Part shown: one piece after another, positions 38 through 55,102 of the stretch
Layout of the letters: each line of letters opens with the position of its first letter
Position numbering within the stretch: position 1 is the stretch's first letter
NCBI GenBank assembly: GCA_035610835.1
Contig: CM069449.1
Location: 65,000,292 to 65,064,291, forward strand
Length of the DNA stretch: 64,000 bases
Direction of reading: 5' to 3'
Origin: Ophiura sarsii
Taxonomy: Eukaryota > Echinodermata > Ophiuroidea > Amphilepidida > Ophiuridae
Translations under genes and position numbers: made by a program
The notes under the pieces: model-generated
Told to the model about the DNA's origin: nothing
Databases searched by the model: none
Seen by the model: only the letters and a program-made list of their open reading frames with translations

Positions 38-454
38 TCACAAGAACTGCTTTTCCGACACCAGACCCATCTTGATCAACTCTGATCGTATTCTCCAACC
101 TATTTTCTTTGTAGCTTGCCGATGAAATCTCTTCTTGTAGATATCCAACTGACACAAGTCCGGGTTGGCTGCCAGAGCCGTCTCCACATCTTTCGGATTC
201 TTCTTGACGAAAACTTTCTGCGACAAACCGCCGGTGAGTTGGACAACACTTCCGAAGCTAAGTTTCTCAAGTTCTGTGGCGGCCGCGAGAAACTGTTGCA
301 TCGTCGCGGATCTAAGAAATCGCCAGTTTCCCCGGATGGCCTGACCGGTCGACACCGGTCCTATAGTCTGCAGAATGGCCATCATGACGGTACGACGTGA
401 CACAATGGCATACTGCCCCAAGAGACCCGACTTGGAAACGGTTTTATCTACAAC
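38..454 (-). CDS. Alternative terminal exon T30 (NWKFL class)
   Basis: The acceptor is ttcaatccag and the exon opens VVDKTVSKSGLL, for 138 codons. It has TVMMAILQTIGPVSTGQAIRGNWRFLRSAT, a wing loop GGLSQKVFVKK and ANPDLCQLDIY. It ends KQFL-TGA. It is the last copy before the window edge, so the array may continue. Confidence 0.75.
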   Translation of the reverse strand, partial: VVDKTVSKSGLLGQYAIVSRRTVMMAILQTIGPVSTGQAIRGNWRFLRSATMQQFLAAATELEKLSFGSVVQLTGGLSQKVFVKKNPKDVETALAANPDLCQLDIYKKRFHRQATKKIGWRIRSELIKMGLVSEKQFL

Positions 455-1154
455 CTGGATTGAATATAAGAGCGGGTAACAAAGGATGAGTTTTGAAGAG
501 AAAAAATCTGGCAAGAAAAGTTTGGAACTTGTAAAACAAGAATTGCTAGTACGTAAAAAAATATGCATTTAAAAAGGAAAATAAGGCAACAGGCAACAAT
601 GTATGTGTTTAGTATGGTTTTGTGTTTTTCGTTTGGTTGTTTTGGTTAAACATTTGATGTGACTTTTTGTTGTTGTTCATATATCATGACATGTGATGAC
701 ATGTTCTTTGATTTGCTATGTGCGACAAGACATATATTATGAGTGTAAAATGTGAGAATTAACACGCCTCATGCGTGAACACATTTTTTTCAGTATGCCT
801 CATGGAATTTGATGTTCATAACATCTTCCATGTTTACATCCAAATGATAAATCCTTGTCTATACAAATTAATTTCATTCAAGAATTGCTGTAAATCCAGT
901 CAATGTTTAAAGAGTTTGTACAATTTAGTGATGGTATATAAACTGCTAACTATTTACAAAAATCCATGGTTCTATGACCTATTAAAATCAATGATTAAGT
1001 ATTTAAATGAACTACAAAAATATGTGGCAAGTTTTATAGAACATCAGCAACCATGCGAGGCAAAAAACATGGTGGATTGGTTTGGCACACCATATCACAT
1101 TCAGCCTATAACCTGTGAGAAAGCATATCAAACTAAAGACAACAATTCAGTCAA

Positions 1155-1568
1155 TCACATGAATTTTTCCTTTGACACAAATCCCATGTCGATCAGTTTG
1201 ACCCGGACATCCCAGCTGATTTTCTTGGAACTTGGTTTATGAAATCGTTCACTGTATATCTCCACGCCACACAGATCCGGGCTCAACTCCAACGCTTGCT
1301 GAGCTTCCTCAGGTATTCTCTTGATGAAAAAACGCTGCGAGCGTCCCTTTCCACCGGAAAGCGAGACAACATTGCCCAATCCGAGTTTCTCCAATTCCAT
1401 AGCTGCTGCTTGGAATTGCTGCACTGTAGTGGATCTCAGGCATCGCCAGTTGTGACGGACACAACGGCAGGAAGAAACCGGTCCTAGTGTCTGCAAAATG
1501 GCCGTCATAATAGTGCGCCTCGACATCATCGCGTACTGGCTCAGTAAACCTGATGCAGATCGTTTACC
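1155..1568 (-). CDS. Alternative terminal exon T29 (NWKFL class)
   Basis: The acceptor is tcaatacag and the exon opens GKRSASGLLSQ, for 137 codons. It has GPVSSCRCVRHNWRCLRSTTVQQF, a wing loop GGKGRSQRFFIKR and LSPDLCGVEIY. It ends KEKFM-TGA. The wing loop is four residues shorter than in T28. Confidence 0.76.
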   Translation of the reverse strand, partial: GKRSASGLLSQYAMMSRRTIMTAILQTLGPVSSCRCVRHNWRCLRSTTVQQFQAAAMELEKLGLGNVVSLSGGKGRSQRFFIKRIPEEAQQALELSPDLCGVEIYSERFHKPSSKKISWDVRVKLIDMGFVSKEKFM

Positions 1569-1798
1569 CTGTATTGAAGATAAAATCAAGCGTTGGTGGA
1601 TGAGTTTGTGGTTTGCATACTTGCTCGAGTATATTTCAATCAAATCGAGAAATCTTGACTCGTGGCTGATGCATTGGAGATCACAACATATCTCATCATG
1701 AAGATCAATAAATCAATGGAAAAGTGTATTTGCCCATGTAATTGTTCTGTGTATGTATTGTATGCTACATGATTGAATTCCTAATTTGTAAAATAAAA

Positions 1799-2002
1799 TA
1801 CTGTAAAAGTAGAAATTTTCGCGAGGTTTTTATTTTCGCGAATCAATCCTTATCCGCGAAAATATAAACTCGCGAAAATTATTGACTTCCATTGACTTTT
1901 GTTCACAAATGTTGAAAATCACAGAAATAAAAAATCGCGAAATGCCTGTTATGACCATTTTCGTGAAAATATCTTATTGCGAAAATATTGACTTTTACAG
2001 TA
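1799..2002. mobile_element. Short inverted-repeat element, CGCGAAA family, copy 1
   Basis: Ends are TACTGTAAAAGT and ACTTTTACAGTA, inverted. The interior is rich in TTTCGCGA/TCGCGAAA. It matches 62092-62311 closely along its length. A non-autonomous MITE-like repeat. Confidence 0.75.
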
Positions 2003-2276
2003 GCAGGATATGTTTTATTAACTTAAAAAACACTATTACCTCAAGTTGGGGGCTGTCAACAACAACAACAACAAATCCCAGACAATAACAGATGATAGTA
2101 CACAGCCTTCAAAATCAACATTATCATTCATCAAACAGCTAAACCACAAATATATCAAAAATAATAACATCAAATCCTTTGCTCTTCGGTGCTGATGAAT
2201 AAGCTAGTAAATCCGTAAACCCTGTAGTCAAAATGAACTCAAATGTTCATACCACAACAGAACCAAGACTTGCAAG

Positions 2277-2688: not shown

Positions 2689-3114
2689 TCACATGAACTT
2701 CTCCTTTGTCACAAGTCCCATTTCAATCAATTTAACCCGAACGTCCCAGCCAATTTTCTTTGAACTCGGTTTATGAAATCTCTTCGTATAAACGTCTGCT
2801 TCGCACAGATCTGGGCTTGACTCCAACGCCTGCTGCGCTTCTTCGGGTTTGCGCTTGATAAAAATCCGCTGCGAGTGACCTGCCGAGCGGCCCTTTCCAC
2901 CAGACAACGCGACCACATTGCCTAATCCAAGTTTCTCCAGCTCAACAGCTGCTGCATGAAACTGTTGTACTGTAGTGGACCTGAGACACCTCCAGTTACC
3001 ACGGACACACCGACAGGTGGAAACGGGTCCCAAAGTTTGCAATATAGCCGTCATGATGGAGCGCCTCGACATCATTGCATACTGGCTCAGTAAACCTGAT
3101 GAACCTCGTTTACC
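2689..3114 (-). CDS. Alternative terminal exon T28 (NWKFL class)
   Basis: The acceptor is tcaatacag and the exon opens GKRGSSGLLSQ, for 141 codons. It has GPVSTCRCVRGNWRCLRSTTVQQF, a wing loop GGKGRSAGHSQRIFIKR that is longer than in T29, and SSPDLCEADVY. It ends KEKFM-TGA. T28 and T29 are close duplicates and share the upstream flank. Confidence 0.76.
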   Translation of the reverse strand, partial: GKRGSSGLLSQYAMMSRRSIMTAILQTLGPVSTCRCVRGNWRCLRSTTVQQFHAAAVELEKLGLGNVVALSGGKGRSAGHSQRIFIKRKPEEAQQALESSPDLCEADVYTKRFHKPSSKKIGWDVRVKLIEMGLVTKEKFM

Positions 3115-3146
3115 CTGTATTGAAGATAAAATCAAGCGATGGTGGA

Positions 3147-4156: not shown

Positions 4157-4576
4157 TCACATGAACTGCTTTTGAGCGACCAGACCCATCGCCACCAACT
4201 TCGACCGAATATTCCAGCTGATAATCTTAGTAGCCGGTCGATTGTATCGCGCAGTATACACACTCGGGTCACACAGGTCAGCATTGGCCTCCAATACCAC
4301 CTGAGCTTCTTCAGGAGTCTTCTTGATAAAAATCTGCTGTGCTCGACCAACTTTACCCGACAAGCCAACCACCTGACCCAAGCCCAACTTCTCCAGCTCG
4401 ACTGCAGCCACGTGAAACTGTTGGGATGTTGCAGATTTCAGAAACTTCCAGTTTCCGCGAATGGCTTGGCATGTGGAGACTGGTCCCACCGTTTGCAGGA
4501 TAGCTCCCATGATGCTGCGCCGGGAAACTAGGGTATGCTGGCTTAGAATACCGGACTTAGTTTTTGGTAATTTATC
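4157..4576 (-). CDS. Alternative terminal exon T27 (NWKFL class)
   Basis: The acceptor is tcaatccag and the exon opens DKLPKTKSGIL, for 139 codons. It has GPVSTCQAIRGNWKFLKSATSQQF, a wing loop KVGRAQQIFIKK and ANADLCDPSVYTARY. It ends QKQFM-TGA. AATAAA (4137-4142) lies 15-20 bases past the stop. Confidence 0.77.
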   Translation of the reverse strand, partial: DKLPKTKSGILSQHTLVSRRSIMGAILQTVGPVSTCQAIRGNWKFLKSATSQQFHVAAVELEKLGLGQVVGLSGKVGRAQQIFIKKTPEEAQVVLEANADLCDPSVYTARYNRPATKIISWNIRSKLVAMGLVAQKQFM

Positions 4577-5379: not shown

Positions 5380-5796
5380 TCACCCAAACTGATTCTGTGA
5401 CACAAGCCCCATAGCAATCAGTGTGGATCGCACATGCCGACTAATCCTCTGTGACGCTGGCCGACGATACCTCATAGCGTAAACATCGAGCGTGCACAGG
5501 TCTGAATTAGTCTCCAACGCAGGCTTTGCTTCCTCTGGTGCTTTCTTCACAAACACCTGTTGTTTACGTCCAGGACCAGAGAGACTCAAGACCCGACCAA
5601 AGCCTAGTTTTTCCAGTTCAGCAGCAGCCGATTGAAATTGAGTGGATGTTGTGCTCCTCAGAAAGGCCCAGTTGGCACGAATGGCTTGGCATGTTGAGAC
5701 TGGTCCTATGGTTTGCAGGATGGCCCCCATGATACTCCGTCGCGATACAAGCGTGTTTTGACAGAGGATACCGGACTTGGATTTTGTTAATTTGTC
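5380..5796 (-). CDS. Alternative terminal exon T26 (NWKFL class)
   Basis: The acceptor is ccaaatccag and the exon opens DKLTKSKSGIL, for 138 codons. It has GPVSTCQAIRANWAFLRSTTSTQF, with A in place of K in NWKFL. The wing loop is GPGRKQQVFVKK. It has TNSDLCTLDVYAMRY and ends QNQFG-TGA. Confidence 0.75.
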   Translation of the reverse strand, partial: DKLTKSKSGILCQNTLVSRRSIMGAILQTIGPVSTCQAIRANWAFLRSTTSTQFQSAAAELEKLGFGRVLSLSGPGRKQQVFVKKAPEEAKPALETNSDLCTLDVYAMRYRRPASQRISRHVRSTLIAMGLVSQNQFG

Positions 5797-6271: not shown

Positions 6272-6688
6272 TTACATGAACTGCTTTTGTGAGACAAGAC
6301 CCATTGCAACCAGTTTTGACCGTATATTCCAATCGATAGTCTTTGAAGCTGGTCGATGGAACCTTGTTGCATAAACCTCGGTTGCGCAAAGATCAGGATT
6401 AGACACCAGCACATGCTGAGCTCTCTCAGGGGGCGCTTTCACAAACACCTGCCGGCCGTGACCTTTTCCCGAGAGACTGACAACCTTGCCTAAAGACAAT
6501 TGTTCAAGTTCGGCGGCGGCGGCCGTGAACTGCGAGGCTGTTGCACACTTAAGAAACTTCCAGTTGGCACGGATGGCGACATGGGTCGACACCGGTCCTA
6601 CCGTTTGCAAAATGGCCGCCATGATACTACGTTTGGACATAATGTTCATGGGACTCAAGATGCCAGACTTGGTAAGTGCCATCTTGAC
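6272..6688 (-). CDS. Alternative terminal exon T25 (NWKFL class)
   Basis: The acceptor is ctttatgcag and the exon opens VKMALTKSGIL, for 138 codons. It has SIMAAILQTVGPVSTHVAIRANWKFLKCAT, a wing loop GKGHGRQVFVK and SNPDLCATEVYATRF. It ends QKQFM-TAA. The class switches back here to the type seen in T1-T3. The KSGIL leader replaces KRD and is shared by T26-T30 in related form. Confidence 0.76.
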   Translation of the reverse strand, partial: VKMALTKSGILSPMNIMSKRSIMAAILQTVGPVSTHVAIRANWKFLKCATASQFTAAAAELEQLSLGKVVSLSGKGHGRQVFVKAPPERAQHVLVSNPDLCATEVYATRFHRPASKTIDWNIRSKLVAMGLVSQKQFM

Positions 6689-10155: not shown

Positions 10156-10563
10156 CTACATGAAACAATTCTGGGCCACAAGTTTCATAGCGACTAGTTT
10201 GGCTCGCAAAGGCAATTTGATAGCTTTGGGTGCAGATTTTGCATAGCGAGCTTTATACACATCCGGCGAACACAGATCGGGATTGGCAAACAACGTTGGT
10301 ACAATTTCCGATGGCAACTTCTTGATAAATACACTTACGCCCCTCTTGCGTTCGTTCGCAATGGTCACCAGCGTACCAAAATTAGCCTTTGCGAGTTCCG
10401 TTGCCGCGTCCACAAACTGTTTAACAGTTATCAAGTGAAGGCTCATTTTAGTGTATCTCACGGCCTCGGTTGTAGATACAGGCCCCGATGTATTTAAGAT
10501 GGCTGCCATAATATCACGAATGTCGAAAGATTGTTGCGCCCTCTTATGCAGTGCATCTCTTTT
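10156..10563 (-). CDS. Alternative terminal exon T24 (central class)
   Basis: The acceptor is attttttacag and the exon opens KRDALHKRAQQ, for 135 codons. It has GPVSTTEAVRYTKMSLHLITVKQF, a wing loop NERKRGVSVFIKK and ANPDLCSPDVYKARY. It ends AQNCFM-TAG. It is the last member of the central class. A LINE fragment lies between it and T23. Confidence 0.77.
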   Translation of the reverse strand, partial: KRDALHKRAQQSFDIRDIMAAILNTSGPVSTTEAVRYTKMSLHLITVKQFVDAATELAKANFGTLVTIANERKRGVSVFIKKLPSEIVPTLFANPDLCSPDVYKARYAKSAPKAIKLPLRAKLVAMKLVAQNCFM

Positions 10564-11548: not shown

Positions 11549-11956
11549 CTACATGAAACAATTCTGGGCCACAAGTTTCATCGAAACCAGTTTGGCTCGC
11601 AAAGGCAACTTGATAGCTTTGGGTGCTGATTTCGCGTAACGGGTTGCATAAAGATCAGGCGAGCACAGATCAGGATTGGCTAGCAGAGCTGGCCCAATTT
11701 GCGACGGCAACTTCTTGATAAACACATTGTGGCCCCTGTTACGGTCGCTTGGAATGGTCACCAGCGTACCAAAATTAGCTTTTGCAAGCTCAGTTGCCGC
11801 TTCCGTAAAATGTTTAGCCGATATCAAGTGTAAACTCATTTTAGTGTATCGCACGGCATCAGTGGTAGACACAGGCCCGGAAGTTTTCAAGATGGCCGCC
11901 ATGATTTCCCGAAAGTCAAAAGATTGCTGAGCCCTCATTTGCAAAGCAGCCGTTTT
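11549..11956 (-). CDS. Alternative terminal exon T23 (central class)
   Basis: The acceptor is gactctttgcag and the exon opens KTAALQMRAQQ, for 135 codons. It has GPVSTTDAVRYTKMSLHLISAKHF, a wing loop SDRNRGHNVFIKK and ANPDLCSPDLY. It ends AQNCFM-TAG. AATAAA (11520-11525) lies 24-29 bases past the stop. It is paired with T24 by the YTKMSLHLI segment and CFM end. Confidence 0.78.
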   Translation of the reverse strand, partial: KTAALQMRAQQSFDFREIMAAILKTSGPVSTTDAVRYTKMSLHLISAKHFTEAATELAKANFGTLVTIPSDRNRGHNVFIKKLPSQIGPALLANPDLCSPDLYATRYAKSAPKAIKLPLRAKLVSMKLVAQNCFM

Positions 11957-14350: not shown

Positions 14351-14564
14351 TTAACCCTCTGAGAACTACCGGCCGATTGGTTAAAAAGATGGATACATCA
14401 TTTATTGCACCAATGAGAGACATTGTTAGAATAATTGTATTCCTGATAAAGATGAGAGTGAACCATTTTACAAGCTGCATTTGAATTGGCTATTCATATG
14501 AGTACATCTAGTAATACACCAATCAGAACCACTGTAAGATAGAAAGGTAGACCCAGGGGGTTAA
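14351..14564. mobile_element. TTAA-flanked short inverted-repeat element, copy A
   Basis: It begins TTAACCCTCTGAGAAC and ends CCAGGGGGTTAA. The sequence is shared with 20127-20341 over its whole length. TTAA at both edges is the insertion pattern of piggyBac-type elements, but no transposase is present. Confidence 0.7.
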
Positions 14565-14963: not shown

Positions 14964-15383
14964 TTACATTAAAAGCTTTTTCGGCACAAGTTTCATCGCT
15001 ACAATTTTTGCCCGCAACTGCAACCCTACGGCTTTCGAAGGCAGCTTGTTATATCTTGTTGCATAAACTTCCAGAGTACACAGATCAGAATTTGAACTTA
15101 ATGCCTGCTCGGCTTCAAGTGGAGGTTTCTTAATAAAAATTTGCGATGCTTGTTTGTTTTTACTGGCACCTAACCCAAGAGTGACCAGCCTCCCCAAATG
15201 TCGACGTTCTAGCTCAGTTGCGGCTTCAATGTAATCCGCCACTTTTAAAAAGCGCAGTGACATGCTAGTGTTTTTGACAGCCTCGGTTGTGCACACTGGT
15301 CCCCGTGTTTTCAAGATGGCCGCCATAATGTCTCTTATACCAGTTGGTTGTTGACGTATTCTGGCATGTAGTTCATCTCTTTT
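14964..15383 (-). CDS. Alternative terminal exon T22 (central class)
   Basis: The acceptor is ccgtactacag and the exon opens KRDELHARIRQQ, for 139 codons. It has GPVCTTEAVKNTSMSLRFLKVADY, a wing loop GASKNKQASQIFIKK and SNSDLCTLEVYATRY, with S for P. It ends KKLLM-TAA. The intronic motif at 15396-15413 is identical to that of T21. Confidence 0.77.
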   Translation of the reverse strand, partial: KRDELHARIRQQPTGIRDIMAAILKTRGPVCTTEAVKNTSMSLRFLKVADYIEAATELERRHLGRLVTLGLGASKNKQASQIFIKKPPLEAEQALSSNSDLCTLEVYATRYNKLPSKAVGLQLRAKIVAMKLVPKKLLM

Positions 15384-15691: not shown

Positions 15692-16108
15692 TTACATTAA
15701 CTGCTTTTTTGGCACTAGTTTCATCGCAACCAGTTTAGCACGCAAATGCAACCCGATTGACTTCGAAGGGGGCTTGTTATATCTTGCCGCGTACACATTC
15801 GGAAAACACAGACCAGGATTTGCACTCAAGACCTGCTCAGCTTCAAATGGAGGTTTCTTAATGAAAACTTGCGATGCCTGTCCTTTGCCATGATTGGCTG
15901 TAAGAGTAACTAGTCCACCCAAGTGTAGACGTTCAAGCTCAGTGGCTGCCTCCACATACTGAGCTGATTTTAAAAAGCGAAGGGCCATACTGGTGTTTTT
16001 CACAGCTTCTCGTGTGCACACCGGTCCGGTAGTATTCAAAATGGCGGCCATGATTTTGTTGATCCCGAATGGTTGTTGGCGTATCCGCTCGTGGATCTCC
16101 TCTCTTTT
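15692..16108 (-). CDS. Alternative terminal exon T21 (central class)
   Basis: The acceptor is ccgtactacag and the exon opens KREEIHERIRQQ, for 138 codons. It has GPVCTREAVKNTSMALRFLKSAQY, a wing loop TANHGKGQASQVFIKK and ANPGLCFPNVY. It ends KKQLM-TAA. It differs from T20 at only a handful of codons. The shared motif (GGUAUUGUUUGCCC form) is at 16121-16138. Confidence 0.78.
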   Translation of the reverse strand, partial: KREEIHERIRQQPFGINKIMAAILNTTGPVCTREAVKNTSMALRFLKSAQYVEAATELERLHLGGLVTLTANHGKGQASQVFIKKPPFEAEQVLSANPGLCFPNVYAARYNKPPSKSIGLHLRAKLVAMKLVPKKQLM

Positions 16109-16412: not shown

Positions 16413-16829
16413 TTACATTAACTGCTTTTTTGGCACAAGTTTCATCGCAACCAGTTTAGCACGCAATTGCAACCCAATTGACTTCGAAGGGGGCTTGTTA
16501 TATCTTGCCGCGTACACATTCGGAAAACAGAGACCCGGATTTGCACTCAAGGCCTGCTCAGCTTCAAATGGAGGTTTTTTAATGAAAACTTGCGATGCCT
16601 GTCCTTTGCCATGATCGGCTGTAAGAGTGACTAGGCCACCCAAGTGTAGACGTTCAAGCTCAGTGGCTGCCTCCACATACTGAGCCGATTTTAAAAAGCG
16701 AAGGGCCCTACTGGTGTTTTTCACAGCCTCTCGAGTGCACACCGGTCCGGTAGTATTCAAAATGGCGGCCATGATTTTGTTGATCCCGAATGGTTGTTGG
16801 CGTATCCGCACGTGTAGTTCCTCTCTTTT
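16413..16829 (-). CDS. Alternative terminal exon T20 (central class)
   Basis: The acceptor is tattctacag and the exon opens KREELHVRIRQQ, for 138 codons. It has GPVCTREAVKNTSRALRFLKSAQY and a wing loop TADHGKGQASQVFIKK. It has ANPGLCFPNVY and ends KKQLM-TAA. It is nearly identical to T21. Its upstream flank differs from that of T21 and has only a degenerate GGUUUUAUUU motif. Confidence 0.77.
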   Translation of the reverse strand, partial: KREELHVRIRQQPFGINKIMAAILNTTGPVCTREAVKNTSRALRFLKSAQYVEAATELERLHLGGLVTLTADHGKGQASQVFIKKPPFEAEQALSANPGLCFPNVYAARYNKPPSKSIGLQLRAKLVAMKLVPKKQLM

Positions 16830-16935: not shown

Positions 16936-17256
16936 TTTACAAGTTTCATTGCAATGAGTCTAGCTCAGTTGCAAACCGATTGCTTTTGAAGGGGCTTGGT
17001 ATATCTTGCGGCATGTTTCACTAGGGAACCTAGATCAGGATTCGCAATCAAAACCTGCTCAGCTTCGAGCGGTGGTTCTTGACGAAGACGTTGAACGTGA
17101 ATTAGAGTACCCAAATTTATATTTTCGAGTTGGGTGGCGGCTTCATGGAAACGAGTCGATTTCAAAAACTGGAGAGATCGGCTGGTGTTCTTCACAGCCT
17201 TGGTGTTAGACACTGGCCCTGCTGTTAGCAAGATAGCTGCGATGATCTCTCTTTAA
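16936..17256 (-). pseudogene. Decayed terminal-exon copy between T19 and T20
   Basis: The minus strand gives IIAAILLTAGPVSNTKAVKNTSRSLQF and later PPLEAEQVLIANPDL, so family membership is plain. The wing region is frameshifted and lacks VFIKK. The second half shifts frame again, and there is no acceptor or basic leader. It is not expected to be used as an exon. Confidence 0.8.
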
Positions 17257-17419
17257 GTTGTGATGAATAATGCCCAGTCAATGCATGTCATGTCTGCATG
17301 GTCCTCTGATTAGATATACATTGGGGGAATCGGGAATCTAAGATCGGGAAGGCAGTTATATCAGCAAAAACCTAGTTCCCAACCATGTAAAATAGATACA
17401 TTGTGAACCAGTCTGTTGA

Positions 17420-17839
17420 TTACATAAAATGTTTTTTCGACACAAGTTTCATAGCGACAAGTTTAGCTCGCAATTGCAAACCAATGGCTTTCGACGATGG
17501 TTTAACAAATCTTGCTGCATATGCAGTCTGAGAACACAAGTCAGGAACTGCACTCAGGACCTCTTCAGCTTCTAGAGGTGGTTTCTTGATGAACACTTTT
17601 GATGCTGACCCGTGGCCTGTTTGACTGAGTGAAACCTGCACTAAAGTGCCCATGTTTAACTTTTCAAGCTCTGCAGCGGCCTCAGTAAATTGATTTGCTT
17701 TCAAAGCCCTGAAAGATCTGCTAGTATTTCTTACAGCATCTGTCGTAGATATTGGTCCAGCCGTTTGCAAGATGGCGGCCATGACAGGCTTAATCCACCC
17801 TATTTGCTGGTGTAGCTTCGTATGTTGTGCATCTTCTCT
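17420..17839 (-). CDS. Alternative terminal exon T19 (central class)
   Basis: The acceptor is ttattttgtag, a TAG in place of the common CAG. The exon opens REDAQHTKLHQQ, for 139 codons. GPISTTDAVRNTSRSFRALKANQF, a wing loop TGHGSASKVFIKK and VPDLCSQTAYAARF show replacement of the usual N before PDLC. It ends KKHFM-TAA. The shared intronic motif is at 17854-17871. Confidence 0.76.
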   Translation of the reverse strand, partial: REDAQHTKLHQQIGWIKPVMAAILQTAGPISTTDAVRNTSRSFRALKANQFTEAAAELEKLNMGTLVQVSLSQTGHGSASKVFIKKPPLEAEEVLSAVPDLCSQTAYAARFVKPSSKAIGLQLRAKLVAMKLVSKKHFM

Positions 17840-18063: not shown

Positions 18064-18468
18064 TCACATAAAATGTTTTTTCGACACAAGTTTCATGGAG
18101 ACTAGTTTAGCTCGCAGTTGCAACCCAATAGCTTTTGAAGGTGGTTTAGCAAATCTTGCAGCATACACATCCAGTGAACAAAGATCAGGATTTGCACTCA
18201 GGATCTGCTGGGCTTCAAGTGGAAGTTTCTTGATAAACACTTTGGACGCCGACCCGTGACTTTGACTAAGTGTTATCGGCACTAACGTGCCCATGTTAAA
18301 CCGTTCAAGCTCCGTGGCAGCCTCAATAAACTGAGATGATTTCAAAGTCCGCAGAGACCTGCTGGTGTTTTTAACAGCCTCTGTAGTAGATATTGGTCCA
18401 GCTGTTTGCAAGATGGCCGCCATGATTTCTTGAACCCCTATTGTTTGTTGATGCAGTGATTCTCTTTT
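18064..18468 (-). CDS. Alternative terminal exon T18 (central class)
   Basis: The acceptor is gttttatacag and the exon opens KRESLHQQTIG, for 134 codons. It has GPISTTEAVKNTSRSLRTLKSSQF, a wing loop SQSHGSASKVFIKK and ANPDLCSLDVY. It ends SKKHFM-TGA. T18 and T19 share a wing loop and C-terminus and form a pair. Confidence 0.77.
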   Translation of the reverse strand, partial: KRESLHQQTIGVQEIMAAILQTAGPISTTEAVKNTSRSLRTLKSSQFIEAATELERFNMGTLVPITLSQSHGSASKVFIKKLPLEAQQILSANPDLCSLDVYAARFAKPPSKAIGLQLRAKLVSMKLVSKKHFM

Positions 18469-18585: not shown

Positions 18586-19002
18586 CTACATGAAATAATC
18601 TTGTGACACTAGTTTCTGTGCAACGAGTCTAGCTCGCAATTGAAACCCGATGGCTTTTGACGGCGGCTTAGCGAATCTCGCAGCATATAGACCCGCATGG
18701 CACAGATCGGGATTCGCATTCAAGATCTGCTCAGCTTCATTAGGCGTTTTTTTGATGAAAACTTTTGATGATTGCCCTTTGCTGTGGGTATGAGCGACAG
18801 ACACCAAATTTCCCAAGTTCAGGTTTTCAAGTTCAGTTGCAGCGTCCACAAATTGCTTGACAGTAAGCCAACGGAGCACCATCCTTGTGTTTCTCACAGA
18901 TATCATCGTTGAAACGGGTCCTGCTGTTTGCAAGATTGCATCCATTACTTCTTTTACCCCTAATGTATTCTGGCGTAGCCTTGCATGCAGCTCGTCTCTT
19001 TT
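18586..19002 (-). CDS. Alternative terminal exon T17 (central class)
   Basis: The acceptor is ttattatgcag and the exon opens KRDELHARLRQ, for 138 codons. It has VMDAILQTAGPVSTMISVRNTRMVLRWL, a wing loop HTHSKGQSSKVFIKK and ANPDLCHAGLY. It ends SQDYFM-TAG. The shared intronic motif is at 19018-19035. Confidence 0.77.
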   Translation of the reverse strand, partial: KRDELHARLRQNTLGVKEVMDAILQTAGPVSTMISVRNTRMVLRWLTVKQFVDAATELENLNLGNLVSVAHTHSKGQSSKVFIKKTPNEAEQILNANPDLCHAGLYAARFAKPPSKAIGFQLRARLVAQKLVSQDYFM

Positions 19003-19101: not shown

Positions 19102-19518
19102 TTACATGAAGTGATTTTGGGACACAAGTTTCATCGCAACAAGTCTGGCTCGCAATTGAAACCCAATGGCTTTAGATGTCGGCTTGGCAAATCTCTCCGC
19201 GTATACATCGGGAGAACACAGATCAGGATTTACACTCAAGGCCTGCCAGATGTCATTCGGTGGCTTCTTGATGAAAACCTTGGAAGGATGACCACATTTC
19301 TTCAGAATGTTTACTGTGACAGTGACTAAACTGCCAAAGTTTCGGCTTTCAAGCTCTGTGGCAGCGTCGATAAACTGTCTGACAGTCAGTTCACGTAGCA
19401 ACCGGGTGGTATTTCTCACTGATGTCATGGTCGATGCAGGTCCGCTGGTTTTCAAAATGGCCGCCATGATTTCTTTAATTCCTACAGATTGCCGTCGTAG
19501 TTTTGAGTATTGTGCGTT
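19102..19518 (-). CDS. Alternative terminal exon T16 (central class)
   Basis: The acceptor is tttgtctgcag and the exon opens NAQYSKLRRQSVG in phase 0, for 138 codons. It has GPASTMTSVRNTTRLLRELTVRQF and a long wing loop NILKKCGHPSKVFIKK. It has VNPDLCSPDVYAERF and ends QNHFM-TAA. AATAAA lies 42-47 bases past the stop, inside the stretch just upstream of T17. Confidence 0.76.
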   Translation of the reverse strand, partial: NAQYSKLRRQSVGIKEIMAAILKTSGPASTMTSVRNTTRLLRELTVRQFIDAATELESRNFGSLVTVTVNILKKCGHPSKVFIKKPPNDIWQALSVNPDLCSPDVYAERFAKPTSKAIGFQLRARLVAMKLVSQNHFM

Positions 19519-21237: not shown

Positions 21238-21648
21238 TTACATGAAATGACTTTGCGCCACCAGTTTCATTGTAACAAGCTTCGCTCGCAATTGAAACCC
21301 TATGGATTTAGATGTTGGCTTTGCAAATCTTGCAGCATACATATCCGCAGAACACAGGTCAGGATTTGCACCCAAGGCCTGCTCTGCTTCCAGCGGAGGT
21401 TTCTTAATGAAAACATTGGTGGGTAGACCCGCTTTGTAATTGATGGTCATTAGAGTTCCAAAATTTGCATTTTGAAGCACCGTGGCAGCTTCAACAAACT
21501 GTTTTGCGGGTAATAAATGGAGGGCTTTTTTTGTGCTCTTAACGGCTCCTAGGGTTGAGACTGGTCCTGTTGTTGTCACAATGGCCGACATAACATCTCT
21601 TATGCTGAATGACTGCTGATGTACCTTTCTGCTTTGTGCATCTCCTTT
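21238..21648 (-). CDS. Alternative terminal exon T15 (central class)
   Basis: The acceptor is cattattctgcag and the exon opens KGDAQSRKVHQQ, for 136 codons. It has GPVSTLGAVKSTKKALHLLPAKQF, a wing loop NYKAGLPTNVFIKK and ANPDLCSADMY. It ends QSHFM-TAA. The upstream intron has a partial motif (GGGCUUUGUUUGCC). Confidence 0.76.
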   Translation of the reverse strand, partial: KGDAQSRKVHQQSFSIRDVMSAIVTTTGPVSTLGAVKSTKKALHLLPAKQFVEAATVLQNANFGTLMTINYKAGLPTNVFIKKPPLEAEQALGANPDLCSADMYAARFAKPTSKSIGFQLRAKLVTMKLVAQSHFM

Positions 21649-21867: not shown

Positions 21868-22266
21868 TTAAATGAAATGGTTTGGGGACACAAGTTTCAT
21901 CTCAACAAGTCTAGCTCGAAGTTGAAACCCAATGGCTTTGGGTGTCGGCATGACAAACCGTGCAGCATAAACATCTGGAGAACACAGGCCAGGATTTGCA
22001 CTCAAGACCTGCTCAACATCAGATGGTGGCTTTTTGATAAACACTCGCACTGGACGCCCAATCTTTTGGGTAATAGTCACCAAAGTGCCAAAGTTTGCCC
22101 TTTCTAGCTCTGTAGCAGCTTCACTGAACTGCTTTAAAGACATATAGACGAGCGCCTTTTTTGACCTCTTGACCGCTAGCATAGTTGACACTGGTCCTGT
22201 AGTTAGCAAGATGACCGCCATGACTTCTTGTATCCCAGGTGATTGATGGCGAGGCAAAACACCGCT
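21868..22266 (-). CDS. Alternative terminal exon T14 (central class)
   Basis: The acceptor is cccgttctgcag and the exon opens SGVLPRHQSPG, for 132 codons. It differs from T13 at scattered sites, including MLAVKRSKKALVYM against MPAVKRTKLALVYM and ANPGLC against ANPVLC. The wing loop is QKIGRPVRVFIKK. It ends PNHFI-TAA. A polyadenylation-type AATAAA lies 86-91 bases downstream. Confidence 0.77.
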   Translation of the reverse strand, partial: SGVLPRHQSPGIQEVMAVILLTTGPVSTMLAVKRSKKALVYMSLKQFSEAATELERANFGTLVTITQKIGRPVRVFIKKPPSDVEQVLSANPGLCSPDVYAARFVMPTPKAIGFQLRARLVEMKLVSPNHFI

Positions 22267-22662: not shown

Positions 22663-23061
22663 TTAAATGAAATGATTTTGGGACACAAGTTTCATCTCAA
22701 CAAGTCTAGCTCGAAGTTGAAACCCAATGGCTTTTGATGTCGGCATGACAAACCGTGCAGCATAAACATCTGGAGAACACAGAACAGGATTTGCACTCAA
22801 GGCCTGCTCAACATCAGATGGTGGCTTTTTGATAAACACTCGCACTGGACGCCCAGTCTTTTGAGTAACAGTCACCAAGGTGCCAAAGTTTGCCTTTTCT
22901 AGCTCAGAAGCAGCTCCAATGAACTGCTTTAAAGACATATAGACGAGCGCCAATTTTGTCCTCTTGACAGCCGGCATAGTTGACATCGGTCCTGTAGTTT
23001 GCAAGATGGCCGCCATGACTTCTTGTATCCCAGGTGATTGATGGCGAGGCAATACACCGCT
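22663..23061 (-). CDS. Alternative terminal exon T13 (central class)
   Basis: The acceptor is ccctgttctgcag and the exon opens SGVLPRHQSPG, for 132 codons. It has GPMSTMPAVKRTKLALVYMSLKQF, a wing loop QKTGRPVRVFIKK and ANPVLCSPDVY, with V at the usual D. It ends QNHFI-TTTAA context (stop TAA at 22665-22663). AATAAA lies 66-71 bases downstream. It is a near-duplicate of T14, flanks included. Confidence 0.77.
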   Translation of the reverse strand, partial: SGVLPRHQSPGIQEVMAAILQTTGPMSTMPAVKRTKLALVYMSLKQFIGAASELEKANFGTLVTVTQKTGRPVRVFIKKPPSDVEQALSANPVLCSPDVYAARFVMPTSKAIGFQLRARLVEMKLVSQNHFI

Positions 23062-32399: not shown

Positions 32400-32786
32400 T
32401 CACATGAAATGATTCTTGGATACGTAATTCATTGCCACAAGCTTCGCTCGCATTTGCAACCCAACTGCTTTCGCCGTCGGTTTAGCATATCTCTCAGAGT
32501 AATAATCGGGAGAACACAGATCGGGGTTTGCTCTTAAGGCCTGCTCCGCTTCATATGGCGGTCTCTTGATAAAAACTTTCACTTTGCTTGTAATGTTCAC
32601 CAAACGGCCGAGGTTGGCATTTTCAAGCTCTGTGGCAGCGTCTTTAAATAGCTTTGTTGGTAACAACTGAAGAGACCTCGAAGTGCTCCTCACAGATCTG
32701 ATCGTAGACACCGGTCCCGTTGTTTTTAAGATGGCTGCCATGACAACTTTGATCTCATATGTTTTCTGATTCAGCGGATGTTTTTT
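32400..32786 (-). CDS. Alternative terminal exon T5 (central class)
   Basis: The acceptor is ccctgtctgcag and the exon opens KKHPLNQKTYE, for 128 codons. The turn/second-helix segment is GPVSTIRSVRSTSRSLQLL. The wing loop is short (SKVKVFIKR). It has ANPDLCSPDYY and ends KNHFM-TGA. It is very close to T6 and T7, including the 3' flank, so the three arose by recent tandem duplication. The shared motif GGUCUUCUUUGCCC lies at 32796-32813. Confidence 0.78.
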   Translation of the reverse strand, partial: KKHPLNQKTYEIKVVMAAILKTTGPVSTIRSVRSTSRSLQLLPTKLFKDAATELENANLGRLVNITSKVKVFIKRPPYEAEQALRANPDLCSPDYYSERYAKPTAKAVGLQMRAKLVAMNYVSKNHFM

Positions 32787-33619: not shown

Positions 33620-33781
33620 TTACATGATATGTTTTTGCGACACAAGTTTCAAATTAACAAGCCTAGCTCGCAACTGAAACCCAACAACTTTTGCCGTCGG
33701 TTTAGCAAATCTAGAAGCATAATTGTCCATAGAACCTAAATTAGGATTCGCACGCAAGGCCTGCTAGGCTTCAAGCGGCGG
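33620..33781 (-). pseudogene. Decayed terminal-exon copy (3' half only)
   Basis: Reading on the minus strand gives a clear match to the second half of the array domain, from PPLEA to KLVSQKHIM-TAA. There is an in-frame TAG where the family has a glutamate, the conserved cysteine of PDLC is a glycine, and no N-terminal half or acceptor is present. It lies in the larger spacing between T4 and T5. Confidence 0.75.
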
Positions 33782-34623
33782 TGTTCCATCTACGATGTAT
33801 TTATTGTGTTCTCTAATTTAGGGTGTGTTCGATTCAAAGTCAAACTAAGGATTCAAAGCAACTTAATTGTTAACACTAACCCCAATAATGCCAAAATCGC
33901 TGTTTATTTCTTACAACCCATTTCAGCTAATGGAAACAAAAAACGCCAAATTATCTAAAAACGCAAAATAACCTAAATGTTTTTACAGGTTATATATATT
34001 ATTATTGAACAGAAATAATTAAAATGATTAGAAACTACTATGATTGTTTGTATACAAATTGCTCACAGCAGTCGCTTAGTGCATGGAATTCCATGATTAT
34101 GTGTGATGAAAAGATCAGTGTTGCTAACCTTACTGATAAACTGCTTAATTGGGCTAATGTTTGCCCTAGGATCGCGCCTGCACAAAGTTGTGTTACCAAT
34201 ACATTTTCTGAGGGCTCAAAGAAAATTGGGCTCCATTTTGTAGTGGGTGGGGCCTAGATGGCACATTAGCCATGGTTCGGGAGAAATTTTGATTGACAAC
34301 ACTGCCAGTACTTCTTGAACATTAACTGATTCTACACACAATCTCCGGTCCGATTGGTTATGACGACGCAACACAATTAGCACCTAATCATTCAAAATGA
34401 ACATTTGATAGTAACATAGCTCTAAAAAAATTAACTGTAATGAAGAAGTTGTCTTGTTTCAATAAGAGTGAATGATTTAGTTATTCATTTTTCATCTAAA
34501 GAAAACTACACTTTACAGTTGCTGATCTAGAATAAGCAAGTTGAACAGTTTTTCTGGCGATAGGTTCCTGAACTGTGTCACGTAAATGATTATGAATCGT
34601 TCAGTCGCAATATGTCAAGCATT

Positions 34624-35031
34624 TCACAACATTTGTTTCTGCGTCACATATTTCTTGGAAACGAGTGCAGCTCTCAGCTGCAATCCAATAGCTTTTGAAG
34701 TCGATTTGGCGAATCGTGCAGCATATACTTCTGGCGTGCACAAACCAGGATTGGCCATCAAGATTGGCTCAGCTTCGACTGGAGATTTCTTGATAAAAAC
34801 TTTAGCCCTGGTCTGACTTGATGGCACAGTCACTAAGGACCCCAATTGAGCCTTTTCCAGCTCACTCGCGGCTTCTATAAACTGGAATGCTGACATAGAG
34901 TTGAGCGACATCTTGACGCGTTTCACCGCCGCCAACGTTGCGACGGGTCCCGTGGTTTGCAAGATGGCCGACATGACTTCTGGTATTCCAAATGTATGCA
35001 TCTTTGCGGCACGAGGTGAACTATCGTTTTT
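34624..35031 (-). CDS. Alternative terminal exon T4 (central class)
   Basis: The acceptor is gttattctgcag and the exon starts KNDSSPRAAK, for 135 codons. It is the first member of the central class: GPVATLAAVKRVKMSLNSMSAFQF replaces the NWKFL segment. The wing loop is SSQTRAKVFIKK. ANPGLCTPEVY has G for the usual D. It ends KQML-TAA. The upstream intron has only a weak form of the shared GGUCUU motif. Confidence 0.74.
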   Translation of the reverse strand, partial: KNDSSPRAAKMHTFGIPEVMSAILQTTGPVATLAAVKRVKMSLNSMSAFQFIEAASELEKAQLGSLVTVPSSQTRAKVFIKKSPVEAEPILMANPGLCTPEVYAARFAKSTSKAIGLQLRAALVSKKYVTQKQML

Positions 35032-36442: not shown

Positions 36443-36859
36443 TTAGAACATTGTTTGACTGACGTGTCCACGTACAACTAGCTCCTCTCGGATACTTTGT
36501 GAAAGAATCTTTGATGACGGCTCATAGAATCTGGCTCCATAATGCTCAATCAAACACAAATCAGGGTTAGCTTCGAGTATCACTCTGGCTTCATCGGGCT
36601 GCTGTTTGACAAACACCGCTTGCGACAATTTCCGCTGCATAAACACCAGCGTCCCGAGGCCAAGCGTTTCCAAATCCTGACTAGCAGCTTGGAATTGTTT
36701 CGCCGAGAGCAGACGCAGGAATTTCCAGTTGAGCCTTACCACCCTGTGAGTTGAGACGGGACCCGTGGTTTGCAGGATACCCGCCATAATGTTCCGTTTG
36801 GTCATGTTACCATTTTGTCGCAAGTGACCCCTGGACTTCATGAGTCGACATTTTTCGGC
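36443..36859 (-). CDS. Alternative terminal exon T3 (NWKFL class)
   Basis: The acceptor is tttacacag and the exon opens AEKCRLMKSRG in phase 0, for 138 codons. Landmarks are NIMAGILQTTGPVSTHRVV, LNWKFLRLLSAKQF, a wing loop with RKLSQAVFVKQ and ANPDLCLIEHY. The end is SQTMF-TAA, one residue shorter than the array norm and without a GT after it. The second helical segment (SKILSQSIREELVVRG) is diverged. Confidence 0.7.
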   Translation of the reverse strand, partial: AEKCRLMKSRGHLRQNGNMTKRNIMAGILQTTGPVSTHRVVRLNWKFLRLLSAKQFQAASQDLETLGLGTLVFMQRKLSQAVFVKQQPDEARVILEANPDLCLIEHYGARFYEPSSKILSQSIREELVVRGHVSQTMF

Positions 36860-37812: not shown

Positions 37813-38244
37813 TCAGTTCTGTTGCTCCCTACTGACAAAGTAGTGCCTAGACACTAAACCCAAGTCAACTAGTTTATCTTGCATATCCTGCGGCACATAT
37901 TTCGACACCGGCTTAAAGAATCGAAATTCGTAATATTCTGGTTCGCACAGGTCAGGGTTTGCTTCCAAAATGATCTGAATCTCTGTCGGGGGCTTCTTTA
38001 TGAAGATATGTGATCCCATTTGCATTGTTCCACACCCAAGTCCTATGCCTTCCAGAGATTTGGCCGCGACTAGATACTGCTTGACGGTGAGCATGTTGAG
38101 AAACTTCCAGTTTCTTGCCAGCACCCTGTGGAGGGTCACCGGACCTGTCGTTTGCAAAATGGCCGCCATAATGTTACGTGGGGTCATGCTAGAGTGTTTA
38201 TTGATGCGGTTCGGAAAACGATTCATGAAATCTCTAGACGTTTT
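37813..38244 (-). CDS. Alternative terminal exon T2 (NWKFL class)
   Basis: The acceptor is catcttgcag and the exon starts KTSRDFMNRF. With 143 codons it is the longest array member. Domain landmarks are NIMAAILQTTGP, RNWKFLNMLTVKQY, a short wing loop MQMGSHIFIKKPP and ANPDLCEPEYYEFRF. The C-terminus runs about eight residues past the usual end (VSREQQN) before TGA, so the normal stop position has been lost. The GPVTLHRVL turn differs from the common GPVST. Confidence 0.72.
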   Translation of the reverse strand, partial: KTSRDFMNRFPNRINKHSSMTPRNIMAAILQTTGPVTLHRVLARNWKFLNMLTVKQYLVAAKSLEGIGLGCGTMQMGSHIFIKKPPTEIQIILEANPDLCEPEYYEFRFFKPVSKYVPQDMQDKLVDLGLVSRHYFVSREQQN

Positions 38245-42846: not shown

Positions 42847-43266
42847 CTAGGCGAACCATTCTCCAGGTGCAAGCCCGGCTGAAACAAGCCTTTCTTGTAA
42901 CTGCTGTGTGATATATTTAGAATTAGGCAAATTAAACCGCACAGTGTAATATTCAGGAGTGCACAAGTCGGGATTCGCACAGAGAACCTGCGCAGCTTCA
43001 ACAGGCACCCTCTTCATGAATACTTGAGTTGGTCTTCCCACTGTCTGCAATGTCACGAGTGATCCCAGTCCTGTTTCTTGCAGATCACTTGCAGCTGTGG
43101 TGAACTGTTTTGCAGTGAGCATATTAAGAAACTTCCAGTTACTGACGAGCATTTTGTGTTTGACAACCTTTCCTGCTGTCTGCAAGATGGCCGCCATTAT
43201 GTTCCGCCGAGTCATGCCCGAGTTTTGAAGCAACGGTCCTCCAGATCCGGCTCGTTGCCTCTTTTT
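42847..43266 (-). CDS. Alternative terminal exon T1 (NWKFL class)
   Basis: The acceptor is cacccgcag and the exon opens KKRQRAGSGG in phase 0. It codes 139 residues to a TAG. It has the full variable domain: NIMAAILQTAGK at the first helix, then SNWKFLNMLTAKQF, a wing-like loop with VGRPTQVFMKR, and ANPDLCTPEYY. It is the most diverged copy at the turn (GKVVKHK instead of GPVST) and ends in WFA instead of the usual HFM. It is first in transcription order, nearest to the constant exons. The stop is GCC-TAG with no GT, which argues that the shared array end is a stop codon and not a hidden donor. Confidence 0.72.
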   Translation of the reverse strand, partial: KKRQRAGSGGPLLQNSGMTRRNIMAAILQTAGKVVKHKMLVSNWKFLNMLTAKQFTTAASDLQETGLGSLVTLQTVGRPTQVFMKRVPVEAAQVLCANPDLCTPEYYTVRFNLPNSKYITQQLQERLVSAGLAPGEWFA

Positions 43267-52481: not shown

Positions 52482-52890
52482 CCGACTTCCCGACGAACTT
52501 CCTGCTCCAGACGTGCTCGCTCTAGGGGACTGGCCTGGGGAGGACTGGCCGGGACTGTTGAACATATTAGGACTTTGTTGACCAAAGAACGAGCTTGCAG
52601 AGGGGAGATTGAGGCCACTGGGGGACGATCCATCAGGGGGCATAAAGGACTGCCAGGAGGTGTCAGACTGGGAGGTAGCAGGGGTCATGTTGGGGTCATC
52701 CTTTATGGCATCCTGGGGGAACTGGGGGAATCCAGAGGGGTCCATGGATCCGGCTGCGGCAGGAGTGCCGCCGCTGTCTGAGAACGATTCTGATTGGTTG
52801 GCTTGTGATTGTGCCATGGGGCACTGGGGAATGTGTTCGGCGAGTTGTTCGGCTTGTTCAAAGGTTTGGTTGCATGTGTAACAGGTATTG
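52482..52890 (-). CDS. Constant exon 3: C2HC zinc finger and S/G/P-rich linker ending at a strong donor
   Basis: Residues 326-462. The acceptor ttaaattacag precedes 52890, and its first base completes the serine codon left open by exon 2. A second finger, C329-x2-C332-x12-H345-x3-C349, follows at once. The rest is low-complexity S, G, P and Q sequence (SPGQSPRAST-type), a likely flexible linker. The exon ends CGG/GTAAGT at 52482 on a codon boundary. Read-through of the donor would add only about 23 residues to a TAA at 52412-52410. The phase-0 donor is compatible with every acceptor of the downstream array. The exon could alternatively end a short isoform by intron retention. Confidence 0.8.
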
Positions 52891-53448
52891 CTGTAATTTA
52901 AAGAAAAGCAACTTGGCTGGTTAAAAATTCATCGGGACATGAGAGCAATAACAACAAAACTTGACGTTCAATTTTATCAGACAGCCAGATTATTTATATT
53001 GCATCTTTTTTTCTTTTAAATTCAATAAAACATAAATCTGGCCTCATATACACCTTCACTATATTCGTTACTTAAAAAGTAAAGAGAAACCCAGCCAATG
53101 TTCACAGAAAAAAGAGATCTTTTGGATGAATGAAAGAGTGTTTATCAAATTATAGATTCTCAAAAAAATATTGTAAAAACAGCTTTTTCATTTGTTAGTT
53201 GCTGCAGTGCATTCAATAAATATCCAATCACATTTCAAGTAACTTGATAGGCCTACGCTTCACATCCTTGCAGAATAATATAATGTAAACAACAAATTCA
53301 ACCGAAATAACAAAATAACAAATAACAATTATTAAGCCAGATTGTAGACAAACTTTCCTTTCCTATGCGGTCTACCAATTTATGTATCTAAAAAGAACTA
53401 CAGGGTTGTGGACTAAAAACAAATCATTGACTGATATACCAACCATAC

Positions 53449-54353
53449 CTGTTTGGATTAGGTACAGTAGCTTCCGTTTTAACGGTAGGAGCTGCCATGC
53501 TTTGTTGGAACTGTTGAGCTGCTATGGTAGGTCTATTTAACCTTCCTGCACCTCTGCCTCTCCCCCTTCCCCGGCCTCCACGGCTACCCCTGCTTCCGCG
53601 ACCTCGATTCCTTGATGCACCGCCTCCTGGCGTGTGGAATGTCAGTGTGTGTTTTTGTAAGACGTGAACACTTTTAAACGCTTTCCTGCATATGCTACAC
53701 TGATAAGGCTTGGGTGCAATGGGTACTTGTTGATAAGGCTGTGGCATCATCTGTTCACTACCCATCATGCCTTGATTACCCATCATGCCTTGGTTACCCA
53801 TCATGCTTTGTTGCTGTTGCTGCGGATTATACATGTTCGGTTGCTGTTGGTCAAAAGTTGGTTCTTGCTTAACCTGTACGTTACCCGTGTTCAGGTTCTG
53901 TGGGTTTGTGATCTGAGTGATTTCAATGTCTGAGTCTTCTCCCTCCTCCTCGTTCATGGTCTGTGTTTGTGAGTTGAAATTATTCATTGTCATGGTGCCA
54001 CCACTGGCTGACAATTGCATTGGCACAGCACTTGGGTTCATCATACCCGGTTGTTGGAAGCCACTTTGCATATCAATGTCACCGCCGCCGCCATCTCCTC
54101 CGCCCCCTTCAGGGTCTCCAGGGATGCTGCTCTCTGTAGAAGCGGACGCATCCTCACCGTACTGTATACACTTGTCCATAAGAGGCTGGCCAGTTTCACC
54201 AGAGACCATTGTCTCTCCTGGCTGCCTCAGCTTACTGTTCCTGTAGCACCTTTTAAGATTACTTGTGGCATAAAATTGGCAGCCACTGACATCTTGCGAG
54301 TCGTGTAGTTTGACGAGAATCTCGCAGCCCGTCTGGACGGCTAAGGCATGAGC
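53449..54353 (-). CDS. Constant exon 2: MADS-like segment, acidic/Q-rich region, C2H2 finger, RG-rich tract
   Basis: Residues 25-326 of the proposed protein. The acceptor cttgcag lies just above 54353 and the donor AACAG/gtatgg is at 53449, splitting a codon after two bases. Residues 24-58 (KAHALAVQTGCEILVKL ... FYATSNLK) match the SRF-type MADS pattern KAxxLxxxTGxxxLxx..Y/F-ATxxL. An acidic stretch (158-172) contains DSDIEIT, a SUMO-interaction-like motif. VKQE (185-188) and VKTE (315-318) fit the sumoylation consensus. Residues 193-233 are Q/M-rich with MMGNQG repeats. A classical finger follows, C243-x2-C246-x12-H259-x4-H264, then an RG-rich tract (about 270-299). The mix suggests a nuclear transcription or chromatin factor. 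I do not recognise a named orthologue. Confidence 0.85.
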
Positions 54354-54399
54354 CTGCAAGGAGTAAAAGAAGGATTTTGAATAATATATACAACAATCA

Positions 54400-54590
54400 G
54401 GGCTCAAATCAAAGGCATCAAAGGCAATTGCCTTCGATGGCCCACCTAATTGCCTTGATGCCCTCAATTTCTGGCTGTTTTCACTCCATTCAAAAGTTCA
54501 TAACTGCCTTGGAGAAAGTTGGTGCCCCTTTCAAATTGCCTTAAAATTGCATGCCCTCTTCATTTCTTATTTTGAGGCCTGACAACAACA
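54400..54590. repeat. Dispersed repeat (AAAGGCAATTGCCTT type) inside intron 1 edge
   Basis: The same order of blocks (GGGCTCAAATCAA, GGCTGTTTT..., CTGCCTTGGAGAAAG, TTTCAAATTGC.TTAAA, GAGGCCTG) occurs at 35935-36090, and part of it at 55157-55265. Confidence 0.65.
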
Positions 54591-54985
54591 GTTCTGTAAG
54601 TCAATTCAAGCATAATAAGTTCTGTCTTCCTATCTCAGCATGAATGAGCGTCTCAAGGTCTACTTGCTTTGTAAGTAAATTGCATTGCAAGCAGACTCCA
54701 TATGATTTGATGCTAGAGTTTCAGGATTGTTGCTGTTTTAAGGGCAAGGCGAAAAAACACGTTTGAAAATTGGGGGAAAACTGGGGGAATTAAGACGGGC
54801 GACAGGTGATTTGCCTCTTAAAATTCAAATAATTTGTGGAAAAGAATAGTGGAGAGGGGGGAAAGGGGATAAAAAGGAGAAATGTGACAATAATTAACAT
54901 TTTGTATTGGGGAAGAAACTTGGTATACCATTACCATCTGATGTGGAGTGTTACATTGCAATGTACTTTCTTATTCTAACTTTAC

Positions 54986-55102
54986 CTTTTGAAAGATCGT
55001 CTTTCTGAGATTGTCTTTGACCCATTCTCGTAACTCGTAGCTTTCTATGAACTTCATGGTGATAACTGTACAGTCTTTGGTGTATGCTTGTAAGTCTTAT
55101 TC
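54986..55102 (-). CDS. Constant exon 1 (5'UTR end plus start of MADS-like/zinc-finger protein)
   Basis: The exon begins after a tgttgcag acceptor at 55103, so at least one upstream noncoding exon is expected. An in-frame TAA follows the acceptor directly. The first ATG after it (55057-55055) is therefore the likely start. Twenty-four codons follow, reading MKFIESYELREW then a basic LRKTIFQK stretch, and end at a gtaaag donor (54985) in phase 0. Together with the next exon the basic residues lead into a MADS-like segment. The short N-terminus lacks the long basic arm of SRF and MEF2 proteins, so DNA contact by this part is uncertain. No promoter was recognised upstream. Confidence 0.75.

Follow-up and report, generated by a model that had tools for sequence, protein, structure and literature searches.

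A brittle-star transcription-factor-like gene whose shared front half is very probably joined to one of at least 30 alternative last exons

The window considered here is the whole stretch of 64,000 nucleotides analysed from the Ophiura sarsii genome, and its coding content on the minus strand begins with three constant 5' exons. Joined, these exons provide 1386 nt of coding sequence (462 aa) that ends at a phase-0 GTAAGT donor without a stop codon, which bears out the initial annotation's description of three 5' coding exons without a 3' end. The donor of constant exon 1 is GTAAAG, in phase 0.

54986..55102, minus strand: constant exon 1; acceptor TTGCAG just before 55102; coding 55057-54986, ATG at 55057
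53449..54353, minus strand: constant exon 2; phase-2 donor GTATGG
52482..52890, minus strand: constant exon 3; phase-0 donor GTAAGT

The constant half is built, in order, from a divergent SRF-like MADS-fold domain, a C2H2 finger and a C2HC-like finger. Exon 1 encodes the start of the MADS-like domain, exon 2 its remainder followed by a disordered part, the C2H2 finger and an RG-rich stretch, and exon 3 the C2HC-like finger and a Ser/Pro/Gly-rich linker. Thus, the name 'zinc-finger half' used in the initial annotation is correct for the one C2H2 and one C2HC-like finger, and misses the MADS-like domain that lies ahead of them. The N-terminal ~70 residues adopt the MADS arrangement of a long helix, a beta hairpin and a helix, and match Pfam PF00319 at 19.3 bits, which is below the curated cut-off of 26. 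The same model is matched by 17 of 17 members at E <= 1, with 20.0 as the best among the scores listed. At E <= 10, Pfam lists 18 families for the constant half; BTB is not one of them, and SRF-TF appears below its cut-off. The MADS-fold part is probably a dimerisation domain, as had been anticipated in the proposal that the shared part includes a dimerisation part, and it perhaps contacts DNA.

Downstream, from 43266 to 38 and on the same strand as the constant exons, lie 30 intact homologous exons with five fragments interspersed. The terminal exons listed below were delimited by a profile scan, a phase-0 acceptor and an open frame with a stop.

42847..43266, minus strand: terminal exon 1; winged-helix-like domain, stop
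37813..38244, minus strand: terminal exon 2
36443..36859, minus strand: terminal exon 3
34624..35031, minus strand: terminal exon 4
32400..32786, minus strand: terminal exon 5
31707..32090, minus strand: terminal exon 6
31194..31583, minus strand: terminal exon 7
30509..30904, minus strand: terminal exon 8
29819..30217, minus strand: terminal exon 9
29147..29551, minus strand: terminal exon 10
27922..28344, minus strand: terminal exon 11
26412..26816, minus strand: terminal exon 12
22663..23061, minus strand: terminal exon 13
21868..22266, minus strand: terminal exon 14
21238..21648, minus strand: terminal exon 15
19102..19518, minus strand: terminal exon 16
18586..19002, minus strand: terminal exon 17
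18064..18468, minus strand: terminal exon 18; AlphaFold2 model, mean pLDDT 87.7
17420..17839, minus strand: terminal exon 19; acceptor TAG
16413..16829, minus strand: terminal exon 20
15692..16108, minus strand: terminal exon 21
14964..15383, minus strand: terminal exon 22
11549..11956, minus strand: terminal exon 23
10156..10563, minus strand: terminal exon 24
6272..6688, minus strand: terminal exon 25
5380..5796, minus strand: terminal exon 26
4157..4576, minus strand: terminal exon 27
2689..3114, minus strand: terminal exon 28
1155..1568, minus strand: terminal exon 29
38..454, minus strand: terminal exon 30; array may continue past the window
33623..33784, minus strand: C-terminal fragment of a copy; profile positions 77-130
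16938..17261, minus strand: degenerate copy; profile positions 8-124 of 130, 94 bits
16242..16400, minus strand: fragment of a copy; profile positions 78-129, 29 bits
15569..15679, minus strand: fragment of a copy; profile positions 78-114, 18 bits
14628..14786, minus strand: weak fragment of a copy; profile positions 14-67, 13 bits

A six-frame scan with the array profile returned the 30 full-length copies, every one of them on the minus strand, at 152-194 bits, together with the five fragments; the bit scores of the 30 copies are necessarily high, since the profile was made from them. Independent queries, consisting of 50 terminal peptides from the brittle star Amphiura filiformis used in tblastn at E 1e-3, matched all 30 copies and two of the fragments, and gave no match outside the array and no sign of other terminal exon types in the window. 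Each copy has a length divisible by 3, an open frame of 127-143 aa and a sole stop at its end. All 30 also carry a phase-0 YAG acceptor, the phase of the exon-3 donor, such that the claim of 30 same-strand homologous exons with acceptor, frame and stop holds for every copy; the donor at 52482 and the acceptors at 43266, 38244, 36859 and 454 had been placed exactly. Most copies contain further AGs, and the one chosen is that at the homologous place after a pyrimidine tract. The mean pyrimidine content at -20 to -5 is 0.77 at the chosen acceptors, versus 0.50 at 2367 other AGs on the same strand within positions 1-44000. Identity at four-fold sites is only 0.40 between divergent copies (204 pairs in a 21-copy clade), and the retention of frame, stop and acceptor in 30 of 30 copies despite this divergence is therefore not due to chance. 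The array holds at least 30 exons, as it runs up to the window edge and may go on beyond; for the exons that may be used within the window, 30 is the maximum.

Each terminal exon encodes a variant of a winged-helix-like domain of about 115 residues, for which DNA binding is a probable, candidate role. A Pfam scan of the 30 exons listed neither FLYWCH nor C2H2 among nine families at E <= 1, and we regard the domain as a winged-helix-like family with no matching Pfam model. A viral origin of the domain was considered and rejected, as searching viral contigs with one of the exons gave 10 pattern matches, of which 0 were confirmed. Elsewhere in the window, ten chosen unassigned ORFs (from those of at least 80 aa) had no Pfam match above cut-off, and there were no matches in Rfam at the gathering threshold or in a tRNA scan.

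The same architecture is found in annotated proteins of A. filiformis. The orthologous locus of this species has 18 annotated protein clusters, with isoforms up to X24, that are identical over 401 residues, exactly up to the exon-3 junction, and then diverge. Of these, 17 run on into the terminal-domain family of the window (two are truncated), and the A. filiformis proteins share 47% identity with the joined window product. These isoforms, which part at the homologous junction, support the proposal that the constant half is spliced to alternative terminal exons. Additional A. filiformis loci have a like build. Domain order and junction in these uncharacterized proteins, from orthologous and paralogous loci alike, are those of the window gene; the terminal-exon set differs after lineage-specific expansion, as judged from a tree from which 9 truncated or unrelated members of the 50 A. 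filiformis terminal segments were omitted, along with 2 of 16 from a further locus, H, and some paralogues, unlike the window gene, end in BEN or other domains. One ORF set comprised 118 ORFs used, among 120 listed of 132 found.

Given these observations, we consider it very probable that this is an ophiuroid transcription-factor-like gene in which a shared front half is combined with a single alternative last exon out of 30 or more. It is hardly credible that the array copies are separate genes that cluster here and have no relation to the constant exons. Every copy does have an open frame and a stop, and the A. filiformis models may include errors of prediction; against this, 22 of the 30 copies have no start codon ahead of the domain, the acceptor phase equals that of the exon-3 donor in all copies, and both halves are joined at the same point in A. 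filiformis proteins. We also think it unlikely that few array exons are used and that the others are recent or silent duplicates. The five fragments, one of which spans most of the domain, show that copies are born and lost, and five copy pairs are young (dS 0.11-0.23). However, all 30 copies are intact and evolve under purifying selection, with pN >= pS in 0 of 435 pairs of terminal exons. Furthermore, 17 of 30 copies have reciprocal-best counterparts in other contigs at 62-82% identity, where their neighbours are apparently the same as here, and numerous isoforms are annotated in A. filiformis.

Another arrangement, in which the terminal exons have promoters of their own and their transcripts are trans-spliced to the constant exons, seems quite improbable to us even though it is that of the closest known architecture. 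Passages of one study describe the mRNAs of Drosophila mod(mdg4) as made exclusively by trans-splicing, with 3' exons that have independent promoters and lie on both strands (PMC12692577). A further point in favour of this arrangement is that poly(A) signals in the window have no clear placement per terminal exon, AATAAA being present within 400 nt after the stop in 8 of 30 copies versus 35% of random segments, which is no enrichment. Against it, and in contrast to mod(mdg4), all 30 copies share the strand of the constant exons, so cis splicing suffices, and gaps between terminal exons as short as 99 nt leave scant room for promoters.

Under the preferred reading of alternative last exons joined in cis, the constant exons would supply the MADS-fold domain, the disordered linker and the C2H2 and C2HC-like fingers, and the phase-0 donor at 52482 would be spliced to a single member of the tandem series of 30 or more terminal exons, and that exon would bring its own winged-helix-like variant and its own stop. 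With one terminal exon per mRNA, each transcript would specify a single regulator that has the dimerisation and zinc-finger parts in common with the others and a C-terminal domain of its own, and dimers formed through the MADS part could pair two different ends. Docking/selector pairing is the model for Dscam, and a mechanism of this type received no support here: the best mean duplex energy was -18.1 kcal/mol, versus -18.2 to -19.9 for shuffled sequence (17 copies from the 21-copy clade against 40-nt windows along the 9.2-kb intron, and five dinucleotide shuffles of the intron). The locus would offer a natural test of how a single donor selects among dozens of acceptors.

To our knowledge, animals are usually credited with only the SRF and MEF2 types of MADS protein, and insect BTB genes are the chief known cases of large regulator repertoires built from alternative last exons. 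The locus suggests that animals also have a divergent MADS lineage of SRF-like type. Moreover, echinoderms would have invented the principle independently, with other constant and variable domains and with several parallel loci. The titles and abstract openings listed in literature searches on brittle-star or echinoderm MADS, zinc-finger and winged-helix proteins and on alternative last exons do not describe this family, and the main texts of PMC11310086 and PMC11959729 contain neither 'zinc finger' nor 'alternative splicing'. A broader idea, which we consider rather unlikely, is that brittle stars evolved an expandable combinatorial repertoire for DNA recognition. Clustered SRF-derived MADS/zinc-finger genes with many fast-diversifying winged-helix (or BEN) last exons, and with MADS dimers that pair different ends, might let a few loci yield hundreds of dimers, serving cell identity or the recognition of foreign or mobile DNA.

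Comparison with known systems places the gene more precisely. The MADS-box proteins SRF and MCM1 have in common with the N-terminal ~70 residues the fold and a weak profile match, and differ in that the Pfam score here is below cut-off and the MADS part is joined to zinc fingers and a winged-helix-like end. Like the window gene, mod(mdg4) has constant 5' exons and isoforms that differ in the C-terminal exon (passages of PMC11426971 and PMC12692577), and the former also gives at least 30 isoforms, such that the number of variants, which the initial annotation took to differ from the examples known to it, has a precedent. The domain types do differ: mod(mdg4) has a BTB constant domain and mostly FLYWCH ends, whereas the window gene has an SRF-like MADS fold with zinc fingers and winged-helix-like ends. 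Drosophila lola likewise joins a constant N-terminus to different C-terminal ends, with 17 of its 20 isoforms carrying different C-terminal C2H2 fingers according to passages of PMC11426971, which call mod(mdg4) and lola the two exceptional loci; the zinc fingers of lola are in the variable part and those of the window gene in the constant part. Having neither BTB nor FLYWCH or C2H2 ends, the window gene falls outside the mod(mdg4)/lola gene family. Its mechanism class is probably that of mod(mdg4) and lola, with different domains and in a different lineage.

The window has a mean GC content of 38% (over 32 blocks) and an exon-intron structure with the following features.

55057 to 52482, minus strand: three constant coding exons, from an ATG to a GTAAGT donor
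43266 to 38, minus strand: 30 intact copies of one terminal-exon family, with five fragments, downstream of the constant exons
3221-3372 and 3447-3598: direct repeat of 152 nt, 99% identical, between terminal exons 28 and 27
14351-14560 and 20127-20336: second repeat pair, 93% identical
32790-32831: example site of TTGGTCTT, 4-45 nt upstream of a terminal-exon acceptor, in a stretch conserved above the surrounding intron
57389-57709, plus strand: open frame whose OSTMP1 match is weak (E 0.0062) and falls below the cut-off, beyond the gene's 5' end
57896-57995: the only N run, outside the array

When joined, constant exons 1-3 (a MADS-like domain and two zinc fingers) encode 462 residues without a stop, confirming the three 5' coding exons without a 3' end that had been described in the initial annotation, whose positions for the donor (52482) and for four acceptors (43266, 38244, 36859 and 454) proved exact. 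The claim of 30 homologous exons on the same strand also held for every copy, as each has a phase-0 YAG acceptor that fits the exon-3 donor and an open frame of 127-143 residues closed by a single stop. Only 38 bases separate the end of the last copy from the edge of the window, so the array has at least 30 members.

We propose that the constant exons and the array would lie in one transcript, that one of the many terminal-exon acceptors would be chosen per mRNA, and that the mRNA would end within or past the chosen exon. Alternatively, the terminal exons could be private genes. However, 11 of the 29 gaps between them are shorter than 310 nt (the smallest is 99), and 22 of the 30 exons have no start codon before the domain. 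Given this tight spacing, the missing start codons and the strand shared with the constant exons, the data speak against private genes and argue for joining in cis. A comparison of intron and terminal-exon copies revealed no docking site, and a search of the 30 copies found no pattern of poly(A) signals set exon by exon.

Pyrimidine content is 0.77 at the array acceptors versus 0.50 at 2367 other AGs, which fits 3' splice sites. Conservation from -33 to -19 is 0.64, versus 0.44-0.48 beyond -34, on a measure that takes the best of several offsets and therefore has a background of about 0.45. The sequence TTGGTCTT occurs within -45 to -4 of acceptors in 10 of 30 copies (expected 0.0, from 600 background segments) and is a possible splicing regulatory element.

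The conservation of the array exceeds chance. Agreement at 4-fold sites is only 40% in pairs below 80% protein identity within a 21-copy clade (204 pairs, 7242 sites), and despite this divergence no copy of the 30 has lost its frame, stop or acceptor. In none of 435 pairs does pN reach pS, and median dN/dS is 0.25 over the 266 pairs with usable dS. The N-linker, wing and helix 2 are the variable elements of the terminal domain, which suggests that the endings differ in specificity, although other elements vary more than the presumed recognition helix does. The MADS part suggests that the products form dimers.

Searching with the joined product gave 58 matches, of which the brittle star Amphiura filiformis supplies 56, all labelled 'uncharacterized protein' isoforms. 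An alignment search gave 99 proteins, from A. filiformis, shorter contigs, one Strongylocentrotus purpuratus entry and one weak fish zinc-finger protein. Both searches scored about 8000 candidates sharing most words, and further taxa may hold relatives. Identity to the closest A. filiformis protein is 47% overall and 79% over the first 92 residues, which makes a different ophiuroid the most likely source of the window. The S. purpuratus protein (P0100) carries the same MADS-like N-terminal domain behind a Brix domain; it is perhaps a fused gene model, and it points to a module older than brittle stars.

At the orthologous A. filiformis locus (isoforms up to X24), 18 protein clusters, made at 90% clustering, have 401 identical residues before they diverge. 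In the alignment, the last of these residues fall at the end of exon 3 of the window. Seventeen of the 18, two of them truncated, run on into the terminal domain family. Such database protein models usually have RNA support, and as models these isoforms directly support alternative endings. Among the A. filiformis groups A-G, 45 of 50 terminal segments match the family at E <= 1; the others are P0050 (BEN match below cut-off), P0047 (BEN-like by eye, yet no match at E 0.1), P0020 (short and unrelated), P0051 and P0056. Outside the 50, BEN matches were above cut-off in P0062 (E 1.4e-12) and below it in P0057. In the models P0062, P0057 and P0050, the same MADS/zinc-finger front half carries a BEN or BEN-like end, which means that winged-helix-like domains are not the only form of the variable part. 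The searches turned up 15 different MADS-like N-termini in A. filiformis, for which the longest contig listed is 64.2 Mb in 14 cases and 102.7 Mb in one (group D). At the paralogous locus H (P0065-P0093), 16 clusters have 197 residues in common, starting at the first zinc finger, in models without the MADS part.

A profile search of other contigs found 132 relatives of the terminal domain, and 118 of the best 120 span it. A maximum-likelihood tree built from 85 terminal domains (few columns, bootstrap not fully settled) places the 30 window exons, 14 of the 15 exons from the orthologous A. filiformis locus and two from paralogous loci in one group (support 99/100). Twenty-one window exons make up an expansion on the window's own side (100/93), and a grouping of six low-coordinate exons with three from A. 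filiformis has support of 97/90. Among the relatives listed from other contigs, reciprocal-best partners exist for 17 of the 30 window exons, at 62-82% identity, but for none of the other 13. Partners of neighbouring exons lie on contigs of equal size (7419, 5374 and 3884 nt), and because equal sizes are read as the same contig, neighbouring exons apparently keep the same neighbours. For terminal exon 43266, the partner is P0133 (7419-nt contig) by tree and P0126 by identity.

The mechanism claimed initially, of the type known from Drosophila mod(mdg4) and lola, is upheld as a likeness, and the brittle-star locus would work as these loci do. In contrast to them, it has no BTB, and its variable exons encode neither FLYWCH nor C2H2, which places it outside both gene families. 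No description of this gene family was found among the titles and abstract openings searched on brittle-star splicing, the A. filiformis genome, echinoderm MADS-box genes and alternative last exons.
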